Below are positions 2,863 through 43,425 of a DNA stretch of 43,817 bases, piece after piece. Positions within the stretch are counted from its first letter, which is position 1; every line of letters begins with the position of its first letter. Both the position numbers and the translations under genes were made by a program. Source of the stretch: a virus. Location: positions 1 through 43,817 of the IMG/VR virus record IMGVR_UViG_3300021963_000234. One strand, 5' to 3'. Below the pieces are notes generated by a model. That model had not been told where the DNA came from and searched no databases. It saw nothing but the letters and a program-made list of their open reading frames with translations.

Positions 2863-3082
2863 CCACAACCGCCTGCTCCGCGACACCCTCGGCGACCCCC
2901 TGACACTGGTCCGCGCCAACACTACCCGCTACGCTGTGTTGGGTCTTTGCTTTGCCGCCCTCGCTGTGTTGTACCCAGAGGTTTGGGCGTTCTTCGCGCT
3001 CTTTGTGCTGTCTGCGTTTCTGTTTCTTGCTTCATTCTCACTGTATGTATTGGAGGTTTACCATGTCAGAAATCGTCGCTAA
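2849..3082 (+). CDS. Small two-pass membrane protein
   Basis: 77 residues. After a soluble N-terminus (MLSSDHNRLLRDTLGDPLTL) come two hydrophobic segments, about 28-44 (YAVLGLCFAALAVLY) and 48-70 (WAFFALFVLSAFLFLASFSL), ending in a basic VRNRR tail. It should sit in the host inner membrane. Early phage membrane proteins of this size often act in superinfection exclusion or host takeover, but nothing here identifies this one. It overlaps both neighbours. Confidence 0.58.
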   Translation: MLSSDHNRLLRDTLGDPLTLVRANTTRYAVLGLCFAALAVLYPEVWAFFALFVLSAFLFLASFSLYVLEVYHVRNRR

Positions 3083-3692
3083 TCCCGCCTTCGCCGCCGC
3101 CGCCGCCGCGTTCCACCACCTGAGCAATCCGCCCAAGACCTCCAAGGTCAACGCGGGCGCCAAGTCTTACTGGTTCGCCCCGCTCCCCGAGATCCTTGAC
3201 GCGGTACGCCCCATCCTGGGCGCGCATGGGCTGTTTGTGCGGTTCCAGACCACGCCGCATGAGAATAACGTCCTTGTCACCTGTGAGATTGTCCACGCTT
3301 CCGGGGTGGTCGTGAGCGCGGCGTCGCTCGTCTCGGCAGGCGGTACCAATATGCAGGTAGTCGGCAGCGGCCTGACCTATGCGCGCCGCTACACCCTGAC
3401 CGCCGCCCTTGGCATCGCCGCCGATGACGATGACGACGGCGAAGCAACGACCCGGCCTGCCCCGAAGCCCGCCGCACCCTCACGCCCCGAGACACCCCCC
3501 GCTCACCTTGCCCGCTTTCTGGAGTGGTGTGGAACCAAGGGGATTGAACCTGCTGATGTGGATGCGTGGCTGGCCAAATCTGGGAAGCCGTCTCTTGGCG
3601 ATATGGATGCCGCGACCATCGAGAAGATGAAAGCCGCGCTTCTTACGCCCGACCTCGCCAACATCCTTAAGTGGCTTACGCGGAACGCCTGA
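3063..3692 (+). CDS. ERF-family single-strand annealing protein
   Basis: 209 residues. The N-terminal domain (about 10-125) carries the ERF signature: KTSKVNAGAKSYWFAPLPEI, a VRPILGAHGL segment, then GLTYARRYTLTAALGIAADD ending in an acidic DDDDDG run. ERF proteins anneal complementary single-stranded DNA during phage recombination and genome circularisation. A Pro-rich linker (about 130-150) joins a helical C-terminal region of unclear role. It starts inside the end of the membrane-protein gene with a GGAGG-type Shine-Dalgarno sequence. The RecU-like resolvase at the left edge would act downstream of it. Confidence 0.9.
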   Translation: MSEIVANPAFAAAAAAFHHLSNPPKTSKVNAGAKSYWFAPLPEILDAVRPILGAHGLFVRFQTTPHENNVLVTCEIVHASGVVVSAASLVSAGGTNMQVVGSGLTYARRYTLTAALGIAADDDDDGEATTRPAPKPAAPSRPETPPAHLARFLEWCGTKGIEPADVDAWLAKSGKPSLGDMDAATIEKMKAALLTPDLANILKWLTRNA

Positions 3693-5000: not shown

Positions 5001-5024
5001 AATTCTTCTATGAATTGTGCGTGT

Positions 5025-5059
5025 GTAGGCTTGACGGTGAGCCTACAGCGGGGCATATT
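5025..5059 (+). promoter_or_regulatory. Early promoter with palindromic operator, copy 1
   Basis: A -35 box TTGACG (5031-5036), a 17-bp spacer and a -10 box CATATT (5054-5059) form a good sigma70-type promoter. A perfect palindrome GTAGGCT-N8-AGCCTAC (5025-5031 and 5040-5046) covers the -35 box and part of the spacer, so a dimer bound there should block or alter RNA polymerase binding. It reads into the gene at 5082, which has a GGAG ribosome site. Three further copies occur downstream. Confidence 0.8.
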
Positions 5060-5081
5060 GATTGTACCAACGGAGAACACA

Positions 5082-5336
5082 ATGATTCACGACATCCGCA
5101 ACACCTTCGATGCCCTCTGGATTTCCCGCCCCCGCGAAGTCAAGATCCGCAAGCAGGTTGCTTACGATCGGTTCCTTGAAGGCGCCCTCAACACCGCTGA
5201 CTTCGGCACCCCGTCTGACAGCGCGGTTCGCAACTACGCTGACCACAACGCTAAAAACTGGTGGCTGCACATGGGCATCCTGACTGGCCAAATGCTGGGT
5301 AAAGCCCCACAGAAAGCAGTTGGGCGGTGGGCGTGA
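5082..5336 (+). CDS. Small unknown protein, first gene of promoter-1 unit
   Basis: 84 residues (MIHDIRNTFDALWISRPREV), basic, with an aromatic C-terminal part (NAKNWWLHMGILTGQML). The start is fixed by GGAG eight bases upstream and by the promoter 23 bases before the ATG. No family recognised. It overlaps the next gene (GTGA). Confidence 0.6.
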   Translation: MIHDIRNTFDALWISRPREVKIRKQVAYDRFLEGALNTADFGTPSDSAVRNYADHNAKNWWLHMGILTGQMLGKAPQKAVGRWA

Positions 5337-5608
5337 AAGTCTCCACCGTCGCCGAAGCTCACCGGCGAAACCACGCCGGCGAATCCCTCGCCGTCATCGC
5401 CGAGAGTCTCGGCCTGACGCGCGGCGCCCTTCACTGCTCCCTGACGCGCTACCGCCGCGCCTACGGTCTGGAGGCCCCGCCCCGCGACCACCAAGACCCC
5501 GCCCCCGCCGAGGCCCCGCTCTACCATCTGGTAGTCGGGCGCATCGAATACCACGACCCCAAAGCCGCCGTTCGGGCGGCAGAACTGGACAGGAGAAGCA
5601 CGATATGA
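5333..5608 (+). CDS. Small HTH protein
   Basis: 91 residues from a GTG that overlaps the upstream TGA; another in-frame GTG lies six bases earlier. Residues about 5-45 (AEAHRRNHAGESLAVIAESL, then GLTRGALHCSLTRYRR) form a helix-turn-helix like those in transposase/homeodomain-like small regulators. It is probably a DNA-binding regulator; the target is unknown. Confidence 0.58.
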   Translation: MKVSTVAEAHRRNHAGESLAVIAESLGLTRGALHCSLTRYRRAYGLEAPPRDHQDPAPAEAPLYHLVVGRIEYHDPKAAVRAAELDRRSTI

Positions 5609-6588
5609 CCGCCCCCAACGGAAACGCCTTCGCAGCCGCCCTCCCCCTCTGCGACGGCTGCGACCTTCCCCTCCAAGGCCCCCGCCGTGCGTACGGGCCG
5701 CTGACGTTCCATCCCAGTTGCTGGCGTTCCAGCATCTACGCCCAGGAGTCACGATGCCCCGCACCCCGCCCTATCTCGCCCCCCGCCCCCGCTACATCGA
5801 CCCCGACGCCACCGAGCAAGCCCGCCGCCTCACCGAGTCGATCCCCTGGCCCGGTGGCCTCGGACGCCTTGCCGCTGCTCTCCCCCAAGCCAACCCCGAC
5901 TCCGAAACCCGCGTTGGTCGCGAACTCGAAGCCGATCCCGACGCCCCCCGTTGCCACGGCCCCCGCGCCGACACCTGCACCCAGGCCCCCACCGGCCCCT
6001 GCCTCCCCCGCGTGTGCCCCGGCTGCCTGTCCAGCGACACCGCCGAAACCTATCACCACCACTGCCACGACAAAGCCGCCCAAACCCCCTCGACCTGCGC
6101 CCGCCCCCAAGCCACCGAAGCCGCCCAAGCCTGTCAAGCCCAAACGGACCCGTACTGAGAACGCCCGCATTGGCTCCCAGACCCACAGCGCCAAAGCCCA
6201 GGCCCGGCTTGAGCGTGACCGCGCCCGCATCCTGGGCTGGCTCGCCAAAGGCCCCTGCCAGGCAGGCGAGTTGACCCGCCGCCTCGGTTGCCACCCGACC
6301 CGATTCCGGGCCGTCACCCGCCCGCTGATTGACGCCGGGCTGATCGTCCGCGCCCGCTACTTCTACCGCCTCCCCGACCAGCGCGTCGAGCCTCGCGCCC
6401 CGGCTGGATGGGGCGTGGTGGCAGCGGCACTCGCCGAGCGCCCCCACAACGCACACGAGCTGGCGACGCTGACCGGGCGTTCGTTGCGGGTGATGCGGGT
6501 GTGGTTGTACCGGGCGGAAGCGGTGGGGCGGCTGGAAAGGGTGGGGGATACCTGGATTTTGACAACCAACGGAGTCTCTAATGGCTGA
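5605..6588 (+). CDS. Zinc-knuckle / Pro-rich / winged-helix protein
   Basis: 327 residues in three parts. Residues 1-45 hold CDGC...FHPSCW, a four-ligand zinc knuckle (CxxC, HxxxC). Residues about 60-190 are a long Pro/Ala/Lys/Thr linker ending in (PKPPKPP) repeats and a basic KPKRTRT. Residues about 200-325 contain two winged-helix-like segments (ILGWLAKGPCQAGELTRRLG and ALAERPHNAHELATLTGRSL), which suggest nucleic-acid binding. The ATG overlaps the previous stop and has AGGAG upstream. The linker region also carries a complete ORF in another frame (5754-6158). Function unknown; a phage transcription regulator is possible. Confidence 0.6.
   Translation: MTAPNGNAFAAALPLCDGCDLPLQGPRRAYGPLTFHPSCWRSSIYAQESRCPAPRPISPPAPATSTPTPPSKPAASPSRSPGPVASDALPLLSPKPTPTPKPALVANSKPIPTPPVATAPAPTPAPRPPPAPASPACAPAACPATPPKPITTTATTKPPKPPRPAPAPKPPKPPKPVKPKRTRTENARIGSQTHSAKAQARLERDRARILGWLAKGPCQAGELTRRLGCHPTRFRAVTRPLIDAGLIVRARYFYRLPDQRVEPRAPAGWGVVAAALAERPHNAHELATLTGRSLRVMRVWLYRAEAVGRLERVGDTWILTTNGVSNG
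5754..6158 (+). CDS. Possible nested, out-of-frame Cys-rich protein
   Basis: 134 residues wholly inside the linker of the 5605-6588 gene, one frame over. It has its own AGGAG Shine-Dalgarno sequence (5744-5748) before ATG and a non-repetitive composition (PDATEQARRLTESIPWPGGL). A Cys/His cluster follows (CHGPRADTC, CLPRVCPGCL, HHHCHD) that could bind zinc. Third codon positions are strongly G/C in this frame too. It could be a real overprinted gene, the true frame of a region with an assembly error, or chance in high-GC DNA. Confidence 0.33.
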   Translation: MPRTPPYLAPRPRYIDPDATEQARRLTESIPWPGGLGRLAAALPQANPDSETRVGRELEADPDAPRCHGPRADTCTQAPTGPCLPRVCPGCLSSDTAETYHHHCHDKAAQTPSTCARPQATEAAQACQAQTDPY

Positions 6589-7957
6589 CGGCACCCTCTT
6601 TGGCAACCTCTCGACTACCCGCGTCATCGACCTGTTCTGCGGTGCCGGCGGCACATCCCTTGGCGTCGAGATGGGCCTTGGCGTCCCTCCGGTCGCAGCG
6701 GTCAACCACTGGCCATACGCGATCCAGATCCACGCCCGAAACCACCCCGAAACCTTGCACTTCGCCGAGGATGTATTCGAGGTTGAGCCTTGGGTAGCGG
6801 CTCGTGGGCTATCGATTGACCTTCTCGTTGGCTCCCCCGATTGCACCCATTTCAGCGTTGCCAAGGGTGGCGCGCCTCGTTCAGCCGGTAGACGAGCTTT
6901 GGCCGATGTGTTTGTGAAGTGGGCGCGTCAGGTTCGGCCCCGCGTCATCATCCTGGAGAACGTCCGCGAATTCCTGACGTGGGGGCCGCTGGATGAGGCG
7001 GGGCAACCGGTCAAGAGCCAGTCCGGGGAGTACTTCCAGGCATGGGCCAACGAGCTTCGCCAGCTCGGCTACGTCGTGGAGTGGCGCCTTCTTCGGGCTT
7101 GCGACTACGGCGCCCCGACCTCTCGGCTCCGGTTGTTCGTTGTGGCGCGCTGCGACGGCATGCCGATCCGCTGGCCTGCCCCTACCCACGGCCCCGGCCT
7201 GATCCCCCACCACACGGCGGCTGAGTGCATCGACTGGAGCATTCCCTGTCCCAGCATCTTCGACCGCAAACGCCCTCTGGCAGAGGCGACATTACGCAGG
7301 ATTGCCCAAGGGATTCAGAAGTACGTCATCGACAGCGCCAGCCCCTTCCTGCTCTGCCTGACGCATGGGGGCCGTCTGGAGCCGCTGACTGAGCCGATGC
7401 AGACAGTGGCAGCGGCACATCGAGGAGAAAAGGCACTGGTACAAGTCGGGTATGGCGAGCGCGCAGGTCAGAAGCCCCGCGCCCTGGACTTGCAGCGACC
7501 GTTGGGTACGGTGGTGTCTGGAGCGTCGAAACATGGCTTGGTGGCCGCATACCTCCAACGCCAGTTTGGAACTGCCACTGGCACAGACCTCAACGAGCCA
7601 TTCCCGACCGTCATGGCCTCCGGTGGCGGCGGAAAGAGCGCGGTTGTGGCTGCTTTCCTGGCTAAGTACTATGGGGCGGAAGGTCAGAACGCCCCGGTAG
7701 ACCGCCCCCTCGATACCGCCACATGCAAAGCCCGCTTTGGGCTGGTGACGGTCCAAATCGACGGGGAGCCTTACGCCATCGTGGACGTTGGAATGAGGAT
7801 GCTGGAACCCCGCGAACTCGCGAGAGCGCAGGGGTTTCCTGACAGCTACATCCTGGAAGGCACGAAAGCCGACCAGATCGCCGCCATCGGGAACGCTGTT
7901 GTTCCGCAGGTGATGGCAGCTTTGACCCGTGAAAATTTGGGGGCGCATCGTGGCTAA
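6581..7957 (+). CDS. DNA C5-cytosine methyltransferase
   Basis: 458 residues. Cofactor motif DLFCGAGGTSLG is at 17-28 and the catalytic loop SPDCTHFSVAKGG at 85-97, in which the usual PPCQ is PDCT and the catalytic Cys88 is kept. ENV (126-128) and a C-terminal QGFPDSY / IGNAVVPQV pair (motifs IX-X region) are also present. It should methylate cytosine C5 in phage DNA. The PDCTHFS variant is a known phage/plasmid branch. The target-recognition region between motifs VIII and IX (about 240-400) is long. The start overlaps the upstream gene and follows GGAG. With the adenine methylase at 409 the phage encodes two base-modification activities. Confidence 0.92.
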   Translation: MADGTLFGNLSTTRVIDLFCGAGGTSLGVEMGLGVPPVAAVNHWPYAIQIHARNHPETLHFAEDVFEVEPWVAARGLSIDLLVGSPDCTHFSVAKGGAPRSAGRRALADVFVKWARQVRPRVIILENVREFLTWGPLDEAGQPVKSQSGEYFQAWANELRQLGYVVEWRLLRACDYGAPTSRLRLFVVARCDGMPIRWPAPTHGPGLIPHHTAAECIDWSIPCPSIFDRKRPLAEATLRRIAQGIQKYVIDSASPFLLCLTHGGRLEPLTEPMQTVAAAHRGEKALVQVGYGERAGQKPRALDLQRPLGTVVSGASKHGLVAAYLQRQFGTATGTDLNEPFPTVMASGGGGKSAVVAAFLAKYYGAEGQNAPVDRPLDTATCKARFGLVTVQIDGEPYAIVDVGMRMLEPRELARAQGFPDSYILEGTKADQIAAIGNAVVPQVMAALTRENLGAHRG

Positions 7958-8720
7958 AAAAGAAAAACCCCCTAAGCTGCCACCCGCGAAGGGCGGCCCA
8001 ACCCAGTTCTACACAGGCTTCGATGTTTACCACATGCAGGCCACACATTCTGCACTCTTAAACCCGGTTGTCGGGCGTGAGGATGTGATCGCCTTTTTGG
8101 GCCTGGACCCCAAAGCAAAAGGGCGTTGGTGGCACGCCGTTTCCGATGGTTGGCCATGCGTTGTCCTCGGTCTGAACAAGGTGCTGCATAAAGAGGACGC
8201 GGACATTCTGTGGCTTCTGGAGCGCATCCAGGAAGACAAGGAGAAAATACCTGGGATAGTGGTTGTTTATCACCACGCGGAAGCAAGCCTCTTTCCGTAC
8301 CTTCAAGAGCAAGTGCCGGGCTTTGAGTGGAGTTTTATCGAACTCCACCAAGGGCGCGAGGAGGGCGTTTTAGGAACGCCCACATTTGAGGCCAGAGTTG
8401 TAAATAATACCCTTCACATCGACAACTTCCGATTTTCAACACACCTGTTATTGCCAGAAGCAAAGCGGGTTGTTGAGGAGTGCCAGGATTGGCGCTCCCT
8501 GGTACAGATGATTCTGTTTGATTTACGGTGGGACGGGAAAGTGTTCAAGCCGACCGCTTACGATATTCCTGAGGGAGATAGCCTTGTACTTGGTAAATAT
8601 CCACTCCCAGGGCACACAACCAACCTCCGGCTGAAGCTCGTAGATATACGGGGCCGTGAGTGGTATTTTACTGTCAAAAATGCGCCGTTGACCCGCTCTA
8701 ACCTTGGAGATTCAAGATGA
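7950..8720 (+). CDS. Unknown 256-residue protein of lower G+C
   Basis: Starts at a GTG overlapping the methylase stop (an earlier in-frame GTG at 7929 is possible). The N-terminus is Lys-rich (VAKKEKPPKLPPAKGG), followed by an alpha/beta region (WPCVVLGLNKVLHKEDADIL, GIVVVYHHAEASLF) and a beta-rich C-terminus (NLRLKLVDIRGREWYFTVKN). I do not recognise the fold. Codon use differs from the neighbours: A/T-ending codons are common, as in the AATAATACC stretch near 8403, which suggests recent acquisition. Its position right after the C5 methylase makes a role in modification or counter-defence possible but unproven. Confidence 0.62.
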   Translation: MAKKEKPPKLPPAKGGPTQFYTGFDVYHMQATHSALLNPVVGREDVIAFLGLDPKAKGRWWHAVSDGWPCVVLGLNKVLHKEDADILWLLERIQEDKEKIPGIVVVYHHAEASLFPYLQEQVPGFEWSFIELHQGREEGVLGTPTFEARVVNNTLHIDNFRFSTHLLLPEAKRVVEECQDWRSLVQMILFDLRWDGKVFKPTAYDIPEGDSLVLGKYPLPGHTTNLRLKLVDIRGREWYFTVKNAPLTRSNLGDSR

Positions 8721-9142
8721 CTGAAACCGAACTCGAAACCGCCCGCAAACTCGCCAAGCACCCCCGCTTTCGCTGGATGCCGGGGATGCGCGCCGTCCCT
8801 GTAAATGGAACTGCAACCTACCGGATCATCGTAGCCGAGAAGGCAGAGATCGGCGCAACTGAGGAAGGCTGGGAAGGCAAGACCTGGGGACTTGGGTACG
8901 ACGAACCTACGGACATGGCAGGCTTCGTCCCCGACCTCAACGACCCCGCCACCATTGGGGCGCTGTTGGGGCTGGTGCGGGAAGTCTGGCAGGATGGGGG
9001 CGCGTATCTGCGCCCGTGGCTGAACTTACCGCCCTACGAGAATTGCTGGGCCGTTTGCGCCCACGGCTGCGCCCTCGCGCCCGGCAAAGGTCAAGGCGGC
9101 GCCCTACTTCGGGCGTTGGAACTGGCGAAGGTGTCGCCATGA
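8717..9142 (+). CDS. Phage hypothetical protein (KHPRFRWMPGM type)
   Basis: 141 residues opening MTETELETARKLAKHPRFRW. The ARKLAxHPRFxWxPGM opening is common in phage hypothetical proteins of unknown function. It has a mixed alpha/beta body with DPATIGALLGLVREVW and a C-terminal CWAVCAHGCALAPGK. The ATG overlaps the upstream stop and has GGAG eight bases upstream. No function assigned. Confidence 0.62.
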   Translation: MTETELETARKLAKHPRFRWMPGMRAVPVNGTATYRIIVAEKAEIGATEEGWEGKTWGLGYDEPTDMAGFVPDLNDPATIGALLGLVREVWQDGGAYLRPWLNLPPYENCWAVCAHGCALAPGKGQGGALLRALELAKVSP

Positions 9143-9627
9143 ACGCGCTCATGCCCGAAGTGAAACTCCACCTCTACCTGCAAGGCGACCAGTACCTCGC
9201 CACCACCCCGCCCGGCGTCTTCCCCGAGATCACCCACACCGCCCACCTCGACGCCGGCGACGAATGGGGCAACCTCGCCCACGGCTGGCATTGGAACTTC
9301 CGGGGCGAGTGCGCCCGGTGGATACTCGCCGTTCTGGAGGTCTACGCCAACGTCGCGATGCCGCGTTGCGCCGACCTTTCCCGTCTGGAAATCGTCTGTT
9401 GCGGGATGACCCAACGCCACCAACGGATGATCTGCGGCGGCGACTGGACCGGCACCGACCTCGCCGCCCACGTTGACCGCCTGCGCTCCCTCCCTGGGAC
9501 GCTCGCAAGCCGCCCCATTGGCAAGAACGAGGCGCCCATCCTGGCAGAACGCGGACACCGCGCCCACGGGTTGCGGGTGGTGAGCGATGCGTTTCTCTCG
9601 ACGGGGCTGATGGGGGTGGGGCTATGA
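9139..9627 (+). CDS. Unknown early protein
   Basis: 162 residues (MNALMPEVKLHLYLQGDQYL). Residues about 30-60 (HTAHLDAGDEWGNLAHGWHW) are His/Trp/Asp-rich, and a CRWILAVLEVYANV-like helix follows. No recognised domain. The ATG overlaps the previous stop; the end overlaps the next ATG. Confidence 0.57.
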   Translation: MNALMPEVKLHLYLQGDQYLATTPPGVFPEITHTAHLDAGDEWGNLAHGWHWNFRGECARWILAVLEVYANVAMPRCADLSRLEIVCCGMTQRHQRMICGGDWTGTDLAAHVDRLRSLPGTLASRPIGKNEAPILAERGHRAHGLRVVSDAFLSTGLMGVGL

Positions 9628-9875
9628 CCGCCTACCAACGCGGCTACCGAGATGCCGCTCTGTCGCTGGCGAGGCAGTTTGATGCGGTGATTCGCGAGGA
9701 AGAAACGCTGCTACAACGCTGCCAGGAAGAGGCCGCCACTGCTCACCCAGAGAACGCGGCGTCCCTTGCCACCATGACCCGCAACGCCCTCCACCGCCAA
9801 CGGGCGGTCCAGTGGTGCCACCTCCTTGCCCTCGCTGCGGCCGAGGCCCTGCCTGACGACCCGGAGGCGCCGTGA
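9624..9875 (+). CDS. YQRG-RD small protein, paralogue A
   Basis: 83 residues opening MTAYQRGYRDAALSLARQFD and ending AEALPDDPEAP. Helical throughout, probably a two- or three-helix bundle. It is a clear paralogue of the gene at 13159, sharing the opening YQRGxRD and the whole ending, and the DNA of the last ~30 bases is nearly identical. Function unknown. It is coupled to both neighbours. Confidence 0.6.
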   Translation: MTAYQRGYRDAALSLARQFDAVIREEETLLQRCQEEAATAHPENAASLATMTRNALHRQRAVQWCHLLALAAAEALPDDPEAP

Positions 9876-10330
9876 TCGTCCCTCTCTCCCACGTCGCCGA
9901 ACGAATCCAACTGGCCCGCCAATACCGGGGGCTGACACAAGGCGCCCTGGCCGAGCAACTCGTCCGCACCCTGCTCGCCGGCGCCGGTGCCACCCTCCCA
10001 CAGCATGCACCTGAGCCCCGCCCCAATGGCCCGCTGGACGTTGGCGGGGAGCGGTCGGGCTGGTCGGCAAGCTGGCCCGAGAAGGCCGAGGCCAGAACCG
10101 CCCAGGAAGCCGCCCAGCAGCCCCAGGAAGGGGCGTCACCCGCTGTAGACCTGCCTCGCTTCGTCCGGCTGACAAAGCGCGTCAGAGAGGCGCAGAGGGC
10201 GTATTTCAAGACCCGAGACGCCACCGTGTTGGCGCAGTCAAAGGCGCTGGAGGGCAAGCTCGATCAGTGGATCGATCTGCTTGCCCCAGAAAATAAAAAA
10301 CAATCAAGTTTATTCAAGGATAAAACATGA
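9872..10330 (+). CDS. HTH-like N-terminus with helical C-terminus
   Basis: 152 residues from a GTG overlapping the previous stop. Residues 5-32 (SHVAERIQLARQYRGLTQGA, LAEQLV) begin like an XRE-type HTH, but no typical recognition helix follows; the protein passes into a Pro/Ala/Glu linker. Residues about 95-150 (RFVRLTKRVREAQRAYFKTR, LEGKLDQWIDLL) are a charged helical hairpin. It may be a small regulator or a partner of the ParB-like protein that follows immediately. Confidence 0.52.
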   Translation: MIVPLSHVAERIQLARQYRGLTQGALAEQLVRTLLAGAGATLPQHAPEPRPNGPLDVGGERSGWSASWPEKAEARTAQEAAQQPQEGASPAVDLPRFVRLTKRVREAQRAYFKTRDATVLAQSKALEGKLDQWIDLLAPENKKQSSLFKDKT

Positions 10331-11991
10331 GCGGACTCTTTACCCCAGGCCACATCAAGCACCTCGATCTCAACCTGATCGTTGCCGACCCCGCGCTCCA
10401 GATGCGCGTAAACCGCAATATCGACGCCCTTGATTCGTATGTCGATGCGATTGCGGACGGCAAAGAATTGCCGCCGGTGATGACCTTTTTCGACGGCACA
10501 AGCTACTGGCTTGCCGACGGGTTCCACCGCTTGGAGGCGCATAAGCGACTCTCCAAAGCGACAATCCGGGCCGAGGTCCGGCCTGGCACCCGCGACAATG
10601 CGTTTTTGTTCGCCCTCTCGGCCAACGCAGAAAATGGGCTTCAACGCACCAACGCCGACAAACGGAAGGCGGTTCTGGCCGCGCTGGCCGATCCCAAAAT
10701 CGGGCGCGAGTCGGATCGGCAGATCGCGGCCCATTGTCGGGTGTCGCATACGTTTGTTCAGAATGTTCGGGCCGATATGACCGGTGGCGTACAATCGCCG
10801 GTCACTGTTCGCGTCCCCGAACAAACCGCCCTCCCGCCCGCACCTCCGGCGATCGGCTGGCCTGACGACGAAAAGGGGCGGATCCGCTGGGTTTCGGAAT
10901 GCGAGGATACTGAAATCTTGAGTCGGGCCTTGATGCAAAAACACAGCCCAGACCTGACGTTCGCGCTGGAAAAACAGCGGGGCTGGTTGGAGTCTCTGTC
11001 CCGGCTTGAATCAGCCGAGATCCTCAAGAGCTTTGAAAAGCTGGTCGGATACAACTACCCCCGTGAGCGCGACGTTGTTCGCGAAACGATCGTTTGCCGC
11101 CGTCTCGCGGCCCTGGCAACGTTGCCAGTCCCGTTTCCGCCTGATCAGATCGGGACCGAGATCGGGCATCTTGAGGAGGCGATTGACGCCTGCGATGCGA
11201 AGTGGAGTGTTGACGATTTTCGGCTTCTGCTGGAGATTTATGCGGTATCGCTCATTTCGCGTCGGTCGGGTCGGGATGCCCAGATTTCGCTCCTCAAACT
11301 CCCACTCCCAGAGAAATTGCATGGGATCGTCCAGGCCAAACTCAACAGCCTGGAGGCTAAGCGAGAGGAGGCTGCTGAGCCCGCCCAGCGCCGCCCGTTG
11401 TACCTGATCCAGACCGCTGACCTGGGCGCGGCGCTGACCGCTCTGGAGTTCGACAAGTCCAACATTGACGAGGTGGCGTCTGCGTTTTGCAACTGTAGCC
11501 CCCATATCGACACCGAGCGGGCCGCCCTGTACACCGGCTGGTTGGCGGCGGCGGGGGTCGAGTTTGAGACCTGTCCCTGGCCTGCTTGTGCGGGTCAGGA
11601 GGTCGTACAGGGTCGGTATTGCCCGCGTTGCCGGATGCGTTCGGAGGATGCAAAGAAACGCTGGGTCAATCACAAAAACACGGTGTTGTTGAATCTGGTC
11701 GGGATCGACGACTTCGCAAAAACCATCTGGTCGCTGCTGGAAGACTTGGAAAACGTCGGGGACAACGACGAGGTTTGTCCGGTCTGCAATACCGAGTATG
11801 ATCGCGGCACCCGCCGCCACACCAGCACCTGTCCAGTCCCCAAAGCCTCTCTCTGGATTGACCCGCTTGCCCGAGTGCTTTCCGGCAAGCTGGCCTTCCC
11901 CGACGCCGAACTGGAGGCCGATCTTCCTGACGAGGAGGATGGGGATCCCGAGGAAGATCCGGAGCTGACCGGGGGGGGTGAGCTTGATTGA
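10327..11991 (+). CDS. ParB/Srx-fold protein with Cys-rich C-terminus
   Basis: 554 residues. The N-terminal ParB/Srx domain is marked by LPPVMTFFDGTSYWLADGFH and the HR/EAHKRL that follows (about 48-75). A ParB-type HTH comes next (NADKRKAVLAALADPKIGRE then SDRQIAAHCRVSHTFVQNVR, about 107-150). The long C-terminal part is unfamiliar and holds two Cys clusters, CPWPACAGQ...YCPRCRMR (about 425-450) and CPVCNTEY...HTSTCP (about 495-515), with an acidic tail. ParB-like domains in phages act as DNA-binding proteins, CTP switches or nucleases; which applies here is not visible. AAGGATAAAAC precedes the ATG. Confidence 0.72.
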   Translation: MSGLFTPGHIKHLDLNLIVADPALQMRVNRNIDALDSYVDAIADGKELPPVMTFFDGTSYWLADGFHRLEAHKRLSKATIRAEVRPGTRDNAFLFALSANAENGLQRTNADKRKAVLAALADPKIGRESDRQIAAHCRVSHTFVQNVRADMTGGVQSPVTVRVPEQTALPPAPPAIGWPDDEKGRIRWVSECEDTEILSRALMQKHSPDLTFALEKQRGWLESLSRLESAEILKSFEKLVGYNYPRERDVVRETIVCRRLAALATLPVPFPPDQIGTEIGHLEEAIDACDAKWSVDDFRLLLEIYAVSLISRRSGRDAQISLLKLPLPEKLHGIVQAKLNSLEAKREEAAEPAQRRPLYLIQTADLGAALTALEFDKSNIDEVASAFCNCSPHIDTERAALYTGWLAAAGVEFETCPWPACAGQEVVQGRYCPRCRMRSEDAKKRWVNHKNTVLLNLVGIDDFAKTIWSLLEDLENVGDNDEVCPVCNTEYDRGTRRHTSTCPVPKASLWIDPLARVLSGKLAFPDAELEADLPDEEDGDPEEDPELTGGGELD

Positions 11992-13162
11992 ATGTGCCGC
12001 TAAAAACTGTGGGATCCTCGCAACCTCCCAGGTGCGGATCCTCGATCCCCGGGGCCGCCCCAGCTACCCGGTCTGGGTCTGTATAGATCACCGGGCCGAG
12101 CTGCACAAGGCGGGGATTCTGTTTGAGAATTCCCCGTTTCGTGCCTCCAATCTCGTTTCCCGTTCACTGATTGGGCGGGAGAAATTCAACATGTTTACAG
12201 CCAACATAAAGGAGCCAGAAATGGCGAAATTCATGAAACTCAATCCCAATGCCAAGCCTGACAATTGCCGGATCTTCGGGTGTCGCAAGGAGCGCGATTC
12301 CGAGGGTCTCTGCGCCCAGCACTACGATCAGGCCGTTCGCGAGGGCCGCCTGTCCGAGCTGGCCCTGCCCCCACTCCAGATCCCATCCCCCGCAGCGACC
12401 ACTGACGCCCAGGCCGAGCTGGCCGCGCTGCGCCAACGGGACCAGGATCAGCAGGCGGTGATTCGCGGGCTCCAGGGCGACCTGGACGATCGCAAACGTC
12501 AACTCCAGGAGGTGGCGGCGGCCCTCGCCTGCCACCCCGATCAGGAGTCTCGACTGGAGGCGATCCGTGGGATGGCAGAACAGCGGAGTCGGGATCTGGA
12601 CGGGATTCGGAGCCTGAGCCGAGAACTGGAGATCGCTCGGGCCGAACTCCGGACGAGAGAGGTAGAGGCCGACTGTTACGCAACTTTTGTGCGCGGAATT
12701 AACTCTGCGCTGGGACTGGATATCGAGCGCGAATTTGCGCTGTCTGCCCAGGATGAGCGGATCGATGCAATCCGCGAACTGTTCGATAAAATCGAATCGT
12801 TGAAGCGGGAAAAGTTCCGACTGGAACAAACCAGTCGGGAGGGGGATGCGAGACTGAATCAAGAGCTGGAAACGGCCTGGGCCAGAATTGCCACCCTCGA
12901 AGGCCAGTCCGAAGACGATGCGATGGAGATCCGGATGCTGCGCGGGAACCTCAAAATCTGCCTTTCCCCCGCCGATCTGGAGCGTCGCCAGTGCCTTCTC
13001 GACGAGGCGACACATGTTCGGGCGGCCCTCGAAAAAGAGGGCGCCACTCTGATTCTCGACGGCGCCACCCTATTGCTCTCCCCGTTGCGGGAGGCGCTGG
13101 CCGGGTACGCGGACCGACTGGAGACCGAGGCGCTGACGGTTCGGTTTGGGGGTGGCCAGTGA
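11978..13162 (+). CDS. Cys-rich coiled-coil protein, partner of the ParB-like gene
   Basis: 394 residues from a GTG that overlaps the end of the ParB-like gene. An N-terminal Cys pair (CAAKNC then WVCIDHRAEL, about 5-42) is followed by a second motif (CRIFGCRK...GLCAQHY, about 97-118), both zinc-finger-like. A long coiled coil runs from about 140 to 335 (LRQRDQDQQAVIRGLQGDLD and similar). An internal ATG at 12221 has a much stronger AAGGAG site than the GTG, so a shorter form of about 313 residues may also be made or be the main product. Function unknown; the pairing with a ParB-like Cys-rich protein suggests a complex. Confidence 0.6.
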   Translation: MSLIECAAKNCGILATSQVRILDPRGRPSYPVWVCIDHRAELHKAGILFENSPFRASNLVSRSLIGREKFNMFTANIKEPEMAKFMKLNPNAKPDNCRIFGCRKERDSEGLCAQHYDQAVREGRLSELALPPLQIPSPAATTDAQAELAALRQRDQDQQAVIRGLQGDLDDRKRQLQEVAAALACHPDQESRLEAIRGMAEQRSRDLDGIRSLSRELEIARAELRTREVEADCYATFVRGINSALGLDIEREFALSAQDERIDAIRELFDKIESLKREKFRLEQTSREGDARLNQELETAWARIATLEGQSEDDAMEIRMLRGNLKICLSPADLERRQCLLDEATHVRAALEKEGATLILDGATLLLSPLREALAGYADRLETEALTVRFGGGQ

Positions 13163-13422
13163 CCCCCTACCAACGCGGAAACCGAGACGGCCTGTTGTCG
13201 CTGGCGAAGCAACTGGAGGCACTGTCCCAAAAAGATAGGATCGCCGCCTATGATTTTCAAGAGATTGCCCGGGTCGCCGAGGCGCGAGGCAATCTCGTGG
13301 CGCTGGACTCTGCGCGCCGTTTATGGCGACTGGCGTTGGAGCGCTTTGATACCGCCCAACAATGTCACCGCCTTGCCCTCTCTGTGGCCGAGGCCCTGCC
13401 TGACGACCCGGAGGCGCCATGA
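13159..13422 (+). CDS. YQRG-RD small protein, paralogue B
   Basis: 87 residues from a GTG overlapping the preceding stop: MTPYQRGNRDGLLSLAKQLE at the start and AEALPDDPEAP at the end. It is a paralogue of the gene at 9624, the middle having diverged and the two ends conserved. Helical, no known domain. The block between the two copies holds the ParB-like and coiled-coil genes, so an ancestral duplication may have bracketed this module. Confidence 0.6.
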   Translation: MTPYQRGNRDGLLSLAKQLEALSQKDRIAAYDFQEIARVAEARGNLVALDSARRLWRLALERFDTAQQCHRLALSVAEALPDDPEAP

Positions 13423-13739
13423 GCGGCCCTGCCACCTGCGGTTGTTGCGGGCGCCGCACCCGCTACCTCTGCGACTATTGCGGTTGCACGCTGGCAACTC
13501 CAGAGTGTGACTGTTGCGAGATTCACGCCCCGTCACGGGTGACGCCTGAGGTTGTTGCCGCCCTGGTTGACCTCGCCCGCAACGCCCACCCCACCGCCCT
13601 GATTGCCGACGTTCCCCGCTGCCCATGCGGCGCGCTCGCCGTGGTGCCTGGGCATTGTCGGGACTGTTGGGCGGGGGAACTGGCGACGGCGAGGCGAGAG
13701 CGGCTGATAGGTAGGATGGCAGCGGCAAACAGAGGATAG
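13419..13739 (+). CDS. Small multi-zinc-ribbon protein
   Basis: 106 residues with about 13 Cys. The first 35 residues hold CGCCGRRTRYLCDYCGC and CDCCEIH; near 68-85 comes CPCGALAVVPGHCRDC. These CxxC pairs should form two or three zinc ribbons, binding nucleic acid or protein. The ATG overlaps the previous stop. It is the last gene before promoter copy 2, whose operator begins inside the stop region. Confidence 0.6.
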   Translation: MSGPATCGCCGRRTRYLCDYCGCTLATPECDCCEIHAPSRVTPEVVAALVDLARNAHPTALIADVPRCPCGALAVVPGHCRDCWAGELATARRERLIGRMAAANRG

Positions 13740-13770
13740 GCTTGCCAACGAGCCTACCGCGCAATACAGG
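13736..13770 (+). promoter_or_regulatory. Promoter with palindromic operator, copy 2 (weaker)
   Basis: ATAGGCT-N8-AGCCTAC (13736-13742, 13751-13757) is the same operator with one changed end base. The -35 is TTGCCA (13742-13747), the spacer 17 bp and the -10 TACAGG (13765-13770). Geometry matches the other three copies, but both hexamers are poorer, so it is probably weaker or needs an activator. It drives the HTH gene at 13786, which has GGAG before its ATG. Confidence 0.65.
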
Positions 13771-13785
13771 CCCATAGGAGATCCC

Positions 13786-14067
13786 ATGCCACGCACCCGC
13801 AACCTACCCGCCCCCGACAAGGGAGCCGCTGCCACCACAGCCCTGATTCGCCACATCCTTGCCACCACCACCCCCGACCTGGCAGAGCTCCGCGCTCGCG
13901 TCCAGATCCGCAACGACCTCCCCACAGGCTGGGCGGCTGACCTCGCCCGGCACCTCGGGCTGTCCCGCAGCCAGGCGAACGAGCTGCGTCGGTTCGCACG
14001 GGGGGAGCGTTCGGTTCCGAGGGCGGGGGCGTTGGCTTGGTTGTTCGCCGGGAATGGCGAATGTTGA
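13786..14067 (+). CDS. HTH regulator under operator copy 2
   Basis: 93 residues. The C-terminal half (WAADLARHLGLSRSQANELR then RFARGERSVPRAGALAWLF) is a clear XRE-type helix-turn-helix, with SRSQANELRRFARGE fitting the recognition helix and the following turn. The N-terminus (about 1-45) is helical. GGAG lies six bases before the ATG. A single HTH gene under its own copy of the operator, between two other copies, makes it a good candidate for the autoregulated protein that binds all four operators. That is inferred from position only. Confidence 0.68.
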   Translation: MPRTRNLPAPDKGAAATTALIRHILATTTPDLAELRARVQIRNDLPTGWAADLARHLGLSRSQANELRRFARGERSVPRAGALAWLFAGNGEC

Positions 14068-14080
14068 AAATGTTGCGTGT

Positions 14081-14115
14081 GTAGGCTTGACGGTGAGCCT
14101 ACACCAGAGCATATT
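14081..14115 (+). promoter_or_regulatory. Early promoter with palindromic operator, copy 3
   Basis: GTAGGCT-N8-AGCCTAC (14081-14087, 14096-14102) overlaps TTGACG (14087-14092); the spacer is 17 bp and the -10 CATATT (14110-14115). The block is nearly base-for-base the same as copy 1, including the TGCGTGT bases just upstream. It drives the gene at 14162 and, by read-through, the ribozyme and the genes at 14541 and 14875. Confidence 0.8.
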
Positions 14116-22369: not shown

Positions 22370-25300
22370 TATCGCCTCCCTACTGAGAAGCCGTTGCGGC
22401 TCGCAATTGTGGACCCGGTTCGCTGAAAGTTCCGTTTCGCGGCCACTCGTTCCAGTTGATTCATAAACGTCTCGGGGTCGTCAGCGGAGACATACACATC
22501 CCCGGTGATGACGATGGCAGCCCCGCGACCTCCCCCGCCCCCGAACTCGCTCAGCCGGTCAAGCGGGATCACCGCCTCCGGGCCGCGCTCCCCGACCAGG
22601 GCCAGGGTAGGACCGAGGGTGACACCGCCCGATGCCATCGCGGGGATTTGGAGGTCGGCAATCATGGACGAACCCCAACGCCCCTCACTCATCGCTGCGA
22701 ATCGGGCAAGCGCCACCTTGTAGCCGCTCGGCACGTTGACGAGCGCGGCGTTCATGGCGTTCAAGCTCTCAGTTGTCTCCTGCACGGTGACGTTCTGCTC
22801 AGCCTGTGCCATCGCCGCGTCATAGGTCATGTTGGACAGGTCGTTGAGGGCGGCACTGGTTGCGTCAGTATCCGCCTTCATCCCCTCCATTTTGGCGATG
22901 ACCTCATCCAAGCCGCCGAAGATTTTGGACAGGCCGCCCAACACCCAGATCAGGGCGTCGAGGATGCCGTTCCAAATCTGCTGTATCCCCAACATCGCTA
23001 CCATGATGACCTGCGCCACGCCCTTCAAGAGCAGGAACAACCCCTCAAAGACCAGTGACAGAATCCCCATCACCCCTTCGAGTGGTGCCAAGATGACACT
23101 CAATAAATCAGCAAACGTCCCTACCACGACACCCAACACAATCAACAGTGGCGCAATCCCAGCGAATATATCTGACACAAACTCAAACAGTGGCGCCAAG
23201 CCGTTGACCAGTTGCGCAACCAGAAGAAGCATGTTTCCGACTACCAGATGAACGCCTACCAACAGTTGCCCGAACGCATCCGAAATCTGACCAAACACAT
23301 CGTCCAGCGTCTTGCTTATGTTGGCCATCGTTTCGCTGCTGACTAACAGTTCCACCAACACCGCAATCAAGGCGCCCCACACGCCCCCGGACTGGAACCC
23401 GCTGACGGCGCTGTTGATTGTCTCCTGTAGTTTGCCCAGCCCGCCCAGAAGCTTGTCGGTCATCGCAGCCCGGAACGCCTTCATGGCGTCGATAGCGTCC
23501 TTCTCCGCCTCAATCCGGTCTTTCGTTGCCTTGTCCAGTTCTTCGGTGCGGGCGGTAAATTCCTCCACCGTCATCCCGAAGGCGGCGGCGGTGTCTGCCA
23601 GGGGGTCATACTCAACGGCTTTGGTAGGTTTGGGCAGGAGCTCTTCGATGCGGTTGCTCAGTTCATCGCCGGTCATCCCGAAGGCGGCGGCGGTGTCAGA
23701 GAACGGGTCGTATTCCTTGACCTTGGCGGCTTTCTCGGTCTTTGCCTTGGATGCCTTGCCCTGCGCGCCGCTCAGCACCCCGACCAGCCCATCAAGAGCG
23801 TTGGCGTAGTCTGTGGTTGAGGTCGCGGCGGCGTCGGTGATCATCGAGAACTCGGCTACCGACCCGGCGGCTGCGTTCGCCTCGGCTTCCATGTTGATGG
23901 TGCCGCCCGCGATGTCATACATCAGGTTGTTCGCGAAGGAACTCATTTCGCTTCGGATGTCCGCGCCCGCTGATTTGAGTGTGCCAGCAATCCCGCCCAT
24001 ACCCGGCGTCACATCCAGTAGCCCGGCGAGTGCGTCAGCCACCGACGCGACCAACCCGCCTACGATCTGTCCAACGGCGGCAGCAGTCGCAACCATGGTC
24101 CAGATGATCCCCATGGTCATCTTCTCAAATGCGGTCCCGGCGTCGTAACTGCCCGTCACCAGCCCAAGAAGTCCGTCTGCAAACTCGCCAATCGCCGCAA
24201 CCATGGGGAGAAACGCGCTCGCAAGCATGGTCACATAGTCGAGGGCTACGGCCAGTCCGTCGCCAACGAACATCACAACCTTCTTTGTGACCCACCCCAC
24301 CGCCTCACCCACCGCCGCCCACTTCTCGGCCCCAAAGTCGGTTCCGGTGATGGTTTCGATGAATTGCAGCACCAGATCGGTCAACTGTAGCAGGCCAACG
24401 CCCAAATACGAGAAGTCCGCGTACATCTCCATCCACCCCACCCGAAAGCCGCCCAGGAACGCCTCAAACACCGCGCCCAGGTAGTCCGCTGCGGGGCCGA
24501 GTACGCCCATCATCGTGGTGGCGAGGCGCTTCACGGTATCCATCGCGCCCTCACCGTCGAGGCTGAACGCGCCCCACACATCGCCTGCAATCGCCTGTAG
24601 AGCCGATAGGGCGGCGATCAGAGGCAGAACCACCTCCGGGCTTAGGGCAGTGGCCAACATCGGCCCATAGGGCGCGAGGGCCGCAATTGCCGCTGCCACA
24701 CCAGAGGCCAGGGCTGCAACCCCGCCCACCATCGCCGGGAGGGTAGCCCCAAGCACCCCGAAGCCGAGAACCGCCTTCTGGGTCGCGGCGTCTAAGGCGT
24801 TGAACCACGCGATTGCCTTGCTCCCCGCCGTCACCACCTCACCCAGCCCGGAAATCAACGGACCCACGGCGGCGATGACGTTACCGACAAACGCGGTGAC
24901 CTCGGGAATCGCCTGCTTCAGCGGCTCGATCATGGGCTTCGCGGCGTCAGCGAGGCCGATGCTCACCCGGTCCTTGAGGGTGCTGACCAGGCCGATCAGG
25001 GTGGTGGACTGGCGCTCCATCATGCCCCCGACCTCGTTGGCGGTGGTGTGCATGAACGCCTTGAGGAAGGTGGCGCTGTCCACTTCTCGCGCTTCCACCA
25101 TTGCAATCACTTCAGGGACAGTCTTGCCAAGCTCTTTGGCAAGCAGCCCGAAGCCGGAGATCCCCACCTCGGTAAGCTGGTTGATCTCCTGCGTTGCAAC
25201 GCGAGTCTTGGCGTTCATCTGGCCTAATGCGGTGATGACGCGGTTGACTTCGGCTGCACCGCCGCCCATCGCAGACACCCGGTCCCCGATGGCAGAGAGC

Positions 25301-26182: not shown

Positions 26183-26842
26183 CTATGCGGTCGTGGCCAC
26201 AGTGACCACGGTGCCGTCCGCAGCGGTGACGGCAACTGAGAGGAAAGACGGCGTTGTTTGTACCAGACCGTCAACGGCACTGCTGCTGGATGCGTTGAGC
26301 ATCTTCGCGAACGCCCGGTAACGGTAGCCAGCGCCTGCCCCGGTGGGGTCGATTTCCAGCAACACGGTGGTGTCGTTGGTAAAGACGCCTTCCAGGGTGC
26401 GGGTGCCTGCACCGGAATCCTGGTCGGTATTGAGCAGGGTGTAGCTCTCAATGTCGCAAGAGAGCGTCTTCAAACCCTGGATACGGGTGCGCCATTGGGA
26501 GCCGAATACCGAGGTGTCGAGTTCGGCAGCTTCAAGCGTGATGTTGGCGCTGTAGCACTCGGCAATCGTCAGCAGAGGCAGGTATGAGCCGTCAGCGGTG
26601 ATGGGTCCGGTCTTGGAACCGGTAAAAACCACGGTTCCGGTGAGGTAATCGACGCTGGAAACGTCCCCACTTGAGATGGGGGTGCCGTTGTCGTACCAGT
26701 CGGGCGTCACGGAGGGGTCCAGAACCTGCTTGCTGGTGTCGCTGATCTGCCAGGTCGTGGTTGCCCCGGTCGTCGCAGTACCCGTGAAAGCCGTGGATGT
26801 GCCTTGGATTTTGACGGTGGTGTTGTATGCGGCGGTGGGCAT
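26183..26842 (-). CDS. Tail tube protein paralogue 2 (larger)
   Basis: 219 residues (MPTAAYNTTVKIQGTSTAFT). Beta-rich, with an ELDTSVFGSQWRTRIQGLKT segment (about 108-127) shared almost exactly with the next upstream gene. A unique N-terminal ~70 residues (TWQISDTSKQVLDPSVTPDW, TGTVVFTGSKTGPITADGSY) is typical of phage tail-tube or Ig-decorated tube proteins. It probably forms or decorates the tail tube. Its gene ends 24 bp before the chaperone. Confidence 0.75.
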   Translation of the reverse strand: MPTAAYNTTVKIQGTSTAFTGTATTGATTTWQISDTSKQVLDPSVTPDWYDNGTPISSGDVSSVDYLTGTVVFTGSKTGPITADGSYLPLLTIAECYSANITLEAAELDTSVFGSQWRTRIQGLKTLSCDIESYTLLNTDQDSGAGTRTLEGVFTNDTTVLLEIDPTGAGAGYRYRAFAKMLNASSSSAVDGLVQTTPSFLSVAVTAADGTVVTVATTA

Positions 26843-26850
26843 TGGTGACC

Positions 26851-27249
26851 TTAGGGAAGGAAGGTGGGGGCGGCTACCGAGCTGAGGTTGCAGCTAAACG
26901 AGGCGAGGCCATCGACCGCAGAACCAGGGCTGTAGCTCATGACCTTGACGGCGCATTTGTAGCCGTTGGTGCCATCAAACAGGACTTTGATGTAGCCGGT
27001 GGCGCCAGAGGTGAACAGGGTCTTGAGCGCAGTCTGGGCGGTATCGCTCGGCTCGTAATCGCCATCAATGGTGAAAGAACCGGACTTCAAGCCCTGGATA
27101 CGGGTGCGCCATTGGGTGTCGCTGAAGTCGGTGGTATCCAACTCGTCGGCGGTCAGGTCGCCGGAGAAGTTCTTGATACCGTCGATGGCGTTGTAGCTTG
27201 AGTCATCCGTCGAAAAGCTGACGGCGGTTGAATAACCTGCGTTTGGCAT
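26851..27249 (-). CDS. Tail tube protein paralogue 1
   Basis: 132 residues (MPNAGYSTAVSFSTDDSSYN), beta-rich, with ELDTTDFSDTQWRTRIQGLK (about 36-55), the pattern of lambda-like major tail tube proteins. The C-terminal AVKVMSYSPGSAVDGLASFS resembles the end of paralogue 2. Whether both are co-assembled or one has a special role cannot be told from sequence. Confidence 0.78.
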   Translation of the reverse strand: MPNAGYSTAVSFSTDDSSYNAIDGIKNFSGDLTADELDTTDFSDTQWRTRIQGLKSGSFTIDGDYEPSDTAQTALKTLFTSGATGYIKVLFDGTNGYKCAVKVMSYSPGSAVDGLASFSCNLSSVAAPTFLP

Positions 27250-40172: not shown

Positions 40173-41576
40173 TCAGTTGCTTGCCGGGCCGATCCCCTCC
40201 CACTTTCGGCCCGCGTTGCGAGAATCGTCCTGACGGAACCCGCGATCATTCAGCGACCGGGTAAGCCACTTATGAGAACGCGGCGTCAAACCGTTGTCTT
40301 TAGCCCAGGACACATAGAGCGCGTACAGCCGCTTGTTTTCAATCGTGAGCGCAGGATCGACCGTGCAGCATTCAGCGAGGAAGTCGGCAAGAATGTCCAT
40401 CTCCTGCTTGTAGTCCTCTGTCGCCTGCATCACCGCTTCGGGTGGAGCCAGTCCGATGCGCTGCCACTCCTTCAACCCATCAAGCGCCCACTGGAGAATC
40501 CCCGGTGCTTCCTTCCGAAGTCGATCCGGTAGCGCCTTGTCCCGTTGCTCTTTGGGGATCGTCACCGTGAACGGGATCATCCGAAGCCGCCGCCAGATCC
40601 CCTCATCCGTTCCCTTGACGATAGGCTTGTGGTTGGTGAGCATCCACAACTTGAAAGCCGGGATGAAGTTGAAGAACTCCCGGTTGAGGAATCGCGCCGT
40701 GATGGGGTCGCCGCCCGTTACCAGCTTGACCAGTGCCTCATCCAGCCCGCCACCCTCACCTGTCTCTGAGCAAGTCACCAACCGCGCCCCCGCCAACGCG
40801 GCCAGGTCGTTTGGGATCGCACCCTCACGCCGTCCCACAAACGTCTCCACCGCCGTCGTGGTTGCGTAGTCTCCCAGGATGTAGCTGATGGTGTCCATGA
40901 ACGTGCTCTTGCCATTGGCTCCGCGCCCATAGGCGATAAACATGCATTGTTCCTTGATAGAGCCTGTCAAGCAGTACCCGACCGCCCGCTGAAGGAACGC
41001 CACCAATTCCTGATCACCGCCCATGATGGTATCCAGAAACGCCAGCCACTCCGGGCACCCGCCCTTGTCCGCACTCACCCGCGCCAGTTTCGTCGCATAG
41101 TCCGACCGTCGCGGCTTGTGCCGGGTCATCGCGCCCAAATCGTAGGTCTGTGACGGCGTACTGAAACTCCAAAGATCCGCATCCCACACATCCTTACGCA
41201 CCGCGATCTTCTCATGGGCAGAGGCAAGTTCCACCAACGCCCGCACACTGGATGCCGACTCGCACCGGATCGCGTGCTTCAGCATGGCTTCCCGCCGCTT
41301 TTTCTGCTTCTCCGACTCCTCGGTCAGCCCCATCGTGTCGTCAGGCTCAGGCGGCGCCATATCGCGCCACAGGTCTGCCACCTGGGTTGCCACCCGCTGC
41401 ACCTGCTTGGTGTCGTCGGTTCGCCAGTGCGACCCGCTCCAGACCATCCAGCCGGTTCCGGGCATCACCCCGCACCACCGGAGATCGGCCCCGAACGTCT
41501 CCACAAAGAGCCTCGCGTTGCCCAGGTCCGTCAGGTTCATCGTCTGGGTTACGACTGTGTTTTCTTCGGTCATCAT
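40173..41576 (-). CDS. D5/P4-type primase-helicase
   Basis: 467 residues. The N-terminal region (about 20-175) is the D5_N type domain (DLRWCGVMPGTGWMVWSGSH, SSVRALVELASAHEKIAV). The SF3-like ATPase has Walker A GRGANGKST (217-225), then LVTCSETGEGGGLDEALVKL and LWMLTNHKPIVKGTDEGIWR. It should unwind DNA at the origin. It belongs with the iteron region at its 3' side and the SF2 helicase at its 5' side, whose stop it overlaps. Confidence 0.9.
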   Translation of the reverse strand: MMTEENTVVTQTMNLTDLGNARLFVETFGADLRWCGVMPGTGWMVWSGSHWRTDDTKQVQRVATQVADLWRDMAPPEPDDTMGLTEESEKQKKRREAMLKHAIRCESASSVRALVELASAHEKIAVRKDVWDADLWSFSTPSQTYDLGAMTRHKPRRSDYATKLARVSADKGGCPEWLAFLDTIMGGDQELVAFLQRAVGYCLTGSIKEQCMFIAYGRGANGKSTFMDTISYILGDYATTTAVETFVGRREGAIPNDLAALAGARLVTCSETGEGGGLDEALVKLVTGGDPITARFLNREFFNFIPAFKLWMLTNHKPIVKGTDEGIWRRLRMIPFTVTIPKEQRDKALPDRLRKEAPGILQWALDGLKEWQRIGLAPPEAVMQATEDYKQEMDILADFLAECCTVDPALTIENKRLYALYVSWAKDNGLTPRSHKWLTRSLNDRGFRQDDSRNAGRKWEGIGPASN

Positions 41577-43341: not shown

Positions 43342-43358
43342 TGTCTCTCCAGGGTTTC

Positions 43359-43425
43359 GTCTCTCCCACCCCACCGCCCGGGGATCAGTCGGGCGGGCGC
43401 CGTCTCAGGGCGCGTGGGGAGAGAC
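43359..43425. repeat. Intergenic inverted repeat with nested hairpin
   Basis: GTCTCTCCCAC (43359-43369) is matched by GTGGGGAGAGAC (43414-43425), with one bulged base. Inside, CGCCCG (43375-43380) pairs with CGGGCG (43390-43395). A further direct copy, GTCTCTCC, is at 43343 and overlaps the helicase Shine-Dalgarno sequence. There is no T-run on either side. It may be an attenuator, a processing site or a protein-binding site between PrimPol and helicase. Confidence 0.55.

Follow-up and report, generated by a model that had tools for sequence, protein, structure and literature searches.

A ParB-like protein of a widespread phage family, followed by an orphan zinc-motif region and coiled-coil frame, in the early-type gene chain of a siphophage-type virus

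Judged by its sequence, the N-terminal half of a 554-residue ParB-like protein encoded by the virus studied here is a divergent member of a known and widespread phage family, PHROG 1033. Its C-terminal half, the coiled-coil protein that follows it, and two small YQRG-type paralogues are, in the collections that we searched, so far unique to this virus. With moderate confidence, we regard the 554-residue protein as an orphan phage ParB-like protein that acts as an NTP-gated DNA clamp or regulator in phage replication or early transcription. The window, i.e., the whole stretch of DNA that we analyzed, is one entire virus record of 43,817 bases. Its minus strand carries siphophage-type genes (terminase, portal, tape measure, and head protease). 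The plus-strand genes, among them the block of five that is of interest here, are called early on account of gene content and strand (Table 1). Viruses related through terminase or primase have only structural or primase genes in common with the window, and not the ParB-like region.

Table 1. Features of the window that are discussed in the text, in order of position.
Feature	Positions	Strand	Remarks
Erf annealing protein	3063-3692	+	early-type gene
Promoter-like site TTGACG-17-CATATT, overlapped by palindrome TAGGCTTG-N6-AGCCTA	5018-5060	+	proposed from consensus and repetition
C5 methylase	6581-7957	+	early-type gene, same overlapping chain as the ParB-like gene
YQRG-type small protein, paralogue 1, 83 aa	9624-9875	+	orphan
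Direct repeat, copy 1, 68 nt	9816-9883	+	90% identity with copy 2; covers the 3' end of paralogue 1 and the start of the next gene; contains GGAGG ribosome-binding site
152-aa protein	9872-10330	+	partial XRE-like start; C-terminal region matches PHROG 15937 (function unknown)
ParB-like protein, 554 aa	10327-11991	+	
Predicted ParB/KorB-type NTP-binding fold and HTH, residues 1-155	10327-10791	+	boxes around R27, DGFHR, NAxxGLxRTNADKR
Orphan C-terminal region, residues 156-554	10792-11991	+	helical, with an acidic tail; putative zinc motifs at 416-435 and 484-502
Run of eight G (G8)	11971-11978	+	junction of ParB-like and coiled-coil frames
394-aa protein	11978-13162	+	coiled coil at about 138-324, preceded by two putative zinc motifs of the CCCH type; orphan
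YQRG-type small protein, paralogue 2, 87 aa	13159-13422	+	
Direct repeat, copy 2	13363-13430	+	3547 nt from copy 1; end of paralogue 2
Cys-rich 106-aa protein	13419-13739	+	final gene of the overlapping chain
Palindrome TAGGCTTG-N6-AGCCTA, copy	13737-13756	+	directly after the overlapping chain
D5-type primase/helicase and SF2 helicase	40173-43374	-	

The designation ParB-like, which an earlier sequence-only reading of this DNA had given to the 554-residue protein, is borne out by a match to PHROG 1033, with an E value of 1e-12 at full length and of 1e-13 for residues 1-151. In an AlphaFold2 model, residues 4-155 form a confidently predicted ParB fold with an HTH (pLDDT mostly above 90 for residues 11-150). 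Structure comparison returns KorB as the closest solved fold (Z 13.0, rmsd 5.4, 146 residues), together with nucleotide-bound forms of ParB (Z 12-13 over 93 residues), Noc (Z 12.4), sulfiredoxin, and PadC; the sequence profile matches solved ParB and Spo0J, and the single sequence matches sulfiredoxin. Within an alignment of 60 family members, R27, G65, N100, G104, R107, and D111 are invariant and H67 and R68 nearly so. The pocket boxes DGFHR and NAxxGLxRTNADKR are present, the box II Arg included, and their correspondence to the ParB boxes was drawn by eye. All 60 aligned members match PHROG 1033 and 28 of them match PF02195, while the window sequence itself falls below detection by the Pfam family ParB_N; a linker motif present in many relatives, TKHGTxAxMNTxxIGK, is absent from the window protein. 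Collectively, model and sequence matches show computationally a predicted NTP-binding fold of the ParB/Srx type followed by an HTH, in the order found in ParB and KorB. As far as the N-terminal quarter of this protein is concerned, the description of the five-gene block as lacking a named function has become outdated.

Relatives of the ParB-like domain were found in at least 322 stretches of viral contigs and at least 153 stretches of bacterial genomes, in open frames that are mostly 240-600 aa long and differ in their C-terminal parts. Counting loci with enough flank, and helicase genes on the same strand within 3.5 kb, an SF2 (ResIII/DEAD) helicase lies downstream in 78 of 132 relatives (49 of 69 viral and 29 of 63 genome loci) and upstream of the ParB-family gene in none of 118 (0/49 viral and 0/69 genome loci). 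Other frequent neighbors are an AAA_24 ATPase, a DUF3799 PD-(D/E)XK nuclease-like protein, and DUF669, along with RusA-like and primase-like genes that were named by eye from their sequences. The helicase and these further neighbors place the family in phage replication/recombination clusters. ParB-fold proteins that are not accompanied by ParA abound in phages and prophages. For this family, the strong one-sided pairing with the helicase offers a direct connection, open to testing, with phage replication or recombination. The virus studied here departs from this arrangement: its helicase of the same type is encoded on the opposite strand (41573-43374), not adjacent to the ParB-like gene, which counts against our preferred view of the protein. 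In favor of that view, Erf, a C5 methylase, a D5 primase, and an SF2 helicase are encoded in the same chain or elsewhere in this phage. With the helicase elsewhere and a zinc region and coiled-coil frame in its place, this variant is a naturally occurring test case for the parts that the family requires. A planctomycete chromosome (CP087563.1) carries 12 matches to the ParB-family domain (L097, L099, L127, and others), many with a helicase downstream, and these may represent either many related prophages or an amplified family.

Compared with PHROG 1033, annotated as "ParB-like partition protein" and sharing with the window protein the N-terminal 150 residues with their domain, HTH, and conserved boxes, the window member is set apart by its length of 554 residues, by an unmatched zinc-bearing C-terminal half, by the lack of the usual downstream helicase, and by the coiled-coil protein that follows. 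The ParB and Noc proteins of bacterial chromosomes resemble it in the NTP-binding fold with ParB boxes (Z 11-13), whereas the window protein has no match to their C-terminal dimer domain. The ParA-binding motif of canonical ParABS systems, (L/F/I)G(K/R)G(L/F/I), was absent when the 554-residue sequence was read through, and no ParA was found among the window proteins scanned with PHROGs and Pfam (the small ORFs were scanned in part). Candidates for parS-like sites would be the four palindromes described below. The DdrB-like ParB domains of polyvalent proteins likewise belong to the ParB/Srx superfamily, occur in phages, and are not associated with ParA (PMC5512222); they are found, however, among late virion genes, whereas the gene of the window protein belongs to a chain of early type, and its fold is followed by an HTH. 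A survey of orphan phage ParB-fold proteins reported binding of CTP, ATP, or GTP, or of nothing detectable (PMC12704722); NTP binding was not seen for 17 of the 28 proteins tested there, which weighs against our preferred view, and motifs did not predict which nucleotide is bound (PMC12704722).

KorB of plasmid RK2, the best structural match, shares with the window protein an NTP-binding domain followed by an HTH, but the identity is about 18%, and the window holds no sign of a KorA-like partner or of operator-site binding. The palindrome TAGGCTTG-N6-AGCCTA occurs in four perfect copies in the window (5026-5045, 13737-13756, 14082-14101, and 15222-15241), of which three (5026, 14082, and 15222) overlap TTGACG-17-CATATT promoters and have long flanks in common (65-113 nt at 75-85% identity). 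From its sequence, this set looks like the operators and promoters of early genes, and consensus and repetition suggest that the first site, with its promoter-like sequence at 5031-5059 ahead of the overlapping gene chain, is likely the start of the early operon that includes the ParB-like block. Since four palindromes lie at early promoters, it is attractive to view the ParB-like protein as a repressor akin to KorB, itself a plasmid ParB-type repressor, that would bind the palindromes through its HTH and silence the early promoters in concert by NTP-dependent clamping or sliding. We nevertheless consider this rather unlikely. The link between protein and palindrome is conjectural, and another gene (13786-14067, plus strand), located directly after one of the copies, could encode the repressor: its 93-residue product, which has no family match, contains a possible HTH suggested by eye (LARHLGLSRSQANELRRFARGE) and is a candidate for acting on the palindromes. 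Furthermore, the palindrome was found in none of 182 other loci, and no multi-copy palindrome common to the ParB family was detected, with nine of 173 sequences, the window included, having one.

The literature also holds proposals of DNase/NTPase activity and of anti-defense roles for ParB-fold proteins (PMC5512222; PMC12704722), so that an NTP-regulated nuclease or counter-defense protein, as put forward for polyvalent DdrB-like ParB domains and for ParB-methylase fusions, has to be weighed as well. In one relative (L142), a methylase-like segment (DPPWEYSN), recognized by eye, shares the reading frame of the ParB-like domain, and a C5 methylase is encoded in the same gene chain as the window protein. 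Yet the ParB-like protein has no match in PADLOC, its HTH and the helicase neighbor of the family are in better agreement with DNA metabolism, and the fold alone cannot tell nuclease residues; such a function is, in our view, quite unlikely.

Downstream of the HTH, residues 156-554 of the ParB-like protein yield a mostly helical model of low confidence. Both Cys clusters that had been noted in this protein are present (C416-x4-C421...C432-x2-C435 and C484-x2-C487-x10-H498-x3-C502), and the 394-residue protein likewise has the previously described architecture, a coiled coil of long helices after two Cys motifs (C6-x4-C11...C35-x2-H38 and C97-x4-C102...C112-x2-H115). No relative of the C-terminal half of the ParB-like protein or of the coiled-coil protein was detected among viral_contigs, phages, plasmids, and 172 loci. 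About 1,150 genomes from three groups, queried with this C-terminal half together with the initial ~140 residues of the coiled-coil protein, likewise yielded none. A search of solved structures by sequence with the C-terminal ParB half and the zinc part gave no credible match either. The best genome match (G418, E 7e-5) was rejected as its frame reads as an unrelated metabolic enzyme. Assignment of the coiled-coil protein as an HNH nuclease was discarded as well, since a stretch of about 30 residues with the zinc motif alone matches (E 4e-4) and there is no HNH core; the same applies to matches to SMC and LmuB, which reflect weak coiled-coil resemblance. A match to TIGR02642 over residues 316-436 (E 0.016) was also set aside, as other searches gave it no support. 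Among the relatives of the ParB-like protein, 63 of 151 have coiled-coil-like windows in their C-terminal parts, compared with about 24 for shuffled tails by this crude measure.

The junction between the two large frames deserves separate consideration. The window has just two homopolymers of 8 bases, and the G8 run located there is one of them. The ParB-like and coiled-coil frames, which differ by a single base at this point, share an overlap of 14 nt, as opposed to 4 nt at all other junctions between 8717 and 13422 (overlaps at three junctions upstream are 8-17 nt). This run and the unusually long overlap raise the possibility that the two frames encode one protein, either through slippage or because of a sequencing error. 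That a sequencing or assembly error at G8 has split a single gene would agree with the fact that the SF2 helicase of the same record is likewise divided into two overlapping frames, with an apparent frameshift near 42520, and with the frequent presence of a coiled coil within the same protein in relatives. However, the acidic tail closing the ParB-like frame and the zinc motif with which the coiled-coil frame begins are plausible natural ends, and the GTG of the latter is preceded by a GGAG, though at a distance of about 13 nt; we judge such an error to be quite improbable. Slippage at G8 would fuse the two frames into one product of about 945 aa, in which an NTP domain, an HTH, two successive zinc regions, and a coiled coil follow each other, and the domain order of the relatives resembles that of this putative product. 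It seems very unlikely to us that G8 is a programmed slippage site from which two products arise, a short, acidic-tailed ParB-like protein and a long form of about 945 aa that joins ParB, zinc, and coiled-coil parts, the latter serving as an SMC-like NTP-gated DNA bridge and slippage setting the ratio of clamp to bridge.

Our preferred view of the ParB-like protein as an NTP-gated clamp or regulator lends itself to the following model. The protein would bind an NTP (CTP or ATP), load onto a DNA site via its HTH and, as a dimer, close as a clamp or bridge on phage DNA. The zinc region and the coiled-coil protein, the latter either as a partner or as a C-terminus gained by slippage at G8, may provide dimerization and contacts to DNA or proteins, and would thereby occupy the place that the C-terminal coiled coil holds in many relatives; as both are orphans, the roles of the C-terminal 400 residues and of the coiled-coil protein are guessed from their motifs. 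The job of the assembly might lie in early phage DNA metabolism, either by loading or regulating replication/recombination enzymes, e.g., the SF2 helicase, or by regulating early transcription. The YQRG paralogues would be small early genes with an accessory part, produced by duplication, and are neighbors of this putative ParB machine. The proteins of the block may form a multi-protein complex; in view of G8, the two large ones may alternatively be a single polypeptide.

All five genes of the block sit where the sequence-only reading had placed them, and the two large ones have high coding potential. The 152-aa product, labeled HTH-like at that time, retains this label in part: its start resembles the XRE type only weakly and incompletely (residues 6-30, E 0.04), and its main match is to PHROG 15937 (residues 97-149, E 1e-10). 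The proposal of a mobile or duplicated module, in contrast, finds little support. An overlapping gene chain (5082-13739) contains all five genes and runs through the block without a compositional break, the GC3 of the block (0.67-0.75) being inside the range of its neighbors; there is no match to a mobility gene (transposase, integrase, or recombinase) within it and no second copy in any collection searched. No promoter-consensus site was found on the plus strand directly before the block, and one weak match lies inside it at 11775. The overlapping chain, the promoter-like site upstream of it, the neighbor-like GC3, and the lack of a mobility gene place the block within a long operon. The idea that its two large genes and the paralogues belong together is contradicted for the ParB part: the N-terminal ParB domain is present in hundreds of other phages and prophages that have neither the coiled-coil protein nor the YQRG paralogues. 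The coiled-coil protein for its part has no relatives that could be compared.

The genes at 9624 and 13159 are true paralogues, as had been suggested, with 48% identity, the end EALPDDPEAP in both products, and a local alignment score of 162, where 2000 shuffles reached 60 at most. The near-identity of their terminal DNA was found as well: the last 68 nt are 90% identical, extending 11 nt into the following gene, and a 29-base segment thereof has exactly two occurrences in the window and none in shuffles. Identity is about 79% over the first ~66 nt, and the middle is weakly conserved. Part of the 3' identity can be explained because the stretch coding for PDDPEAP at the same time supplies the gene that follows with its GGAGG ribosome-binding site. 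The synonymous identity exceeds what this site needs, which makes a common origin of the paralogues with a later exchange at their 3' ends likely.

With direct repeats positioned exactly at both paralogue ends, one might think of the block (9876-13422) as a cassette that was moved or inserted via recombination between them. The strongly diverged bodies of the paralogues, the 4-nt overlaps that run on across both borders, the missing mobility gene, and a composition resembling that of the neighbors all speak against this, and we hold it to be very unlikely; related phages with or without the block were not found, and no relative was near enough there to show an empty site. The repeats could permit loss of the block by recombination, and no such event was seen. 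No YQRG relatives were found in viral_contigs, nor YQRG proteins beside other members of the ParB family; a weak YQRG match in two loci (L034/L035) was rejected as a spurious reading frame.

Several other regions of the window have features of their own. A plus-strand gene for a 256-aa protein without a family match (7950-8720) has a GC of 0.52 and a GC3 of 0.56, below its neighbors, and is possibly a recent acquisition. Further upstream, a 422-aa frame without matches (5320-6588, plus strand) shows a GC2 of 0.70, and the gene content there is uncertain as the gene caller retains only 5754-6158. In the tail gene region, direct repeats (26448-26504 and 27065-27121; 32 nt at 97%) are shared by two nearby genes, and the tape-measure gene contains an internal tandem repeat of about 95 nt (23537-23631 and 23639-23733).
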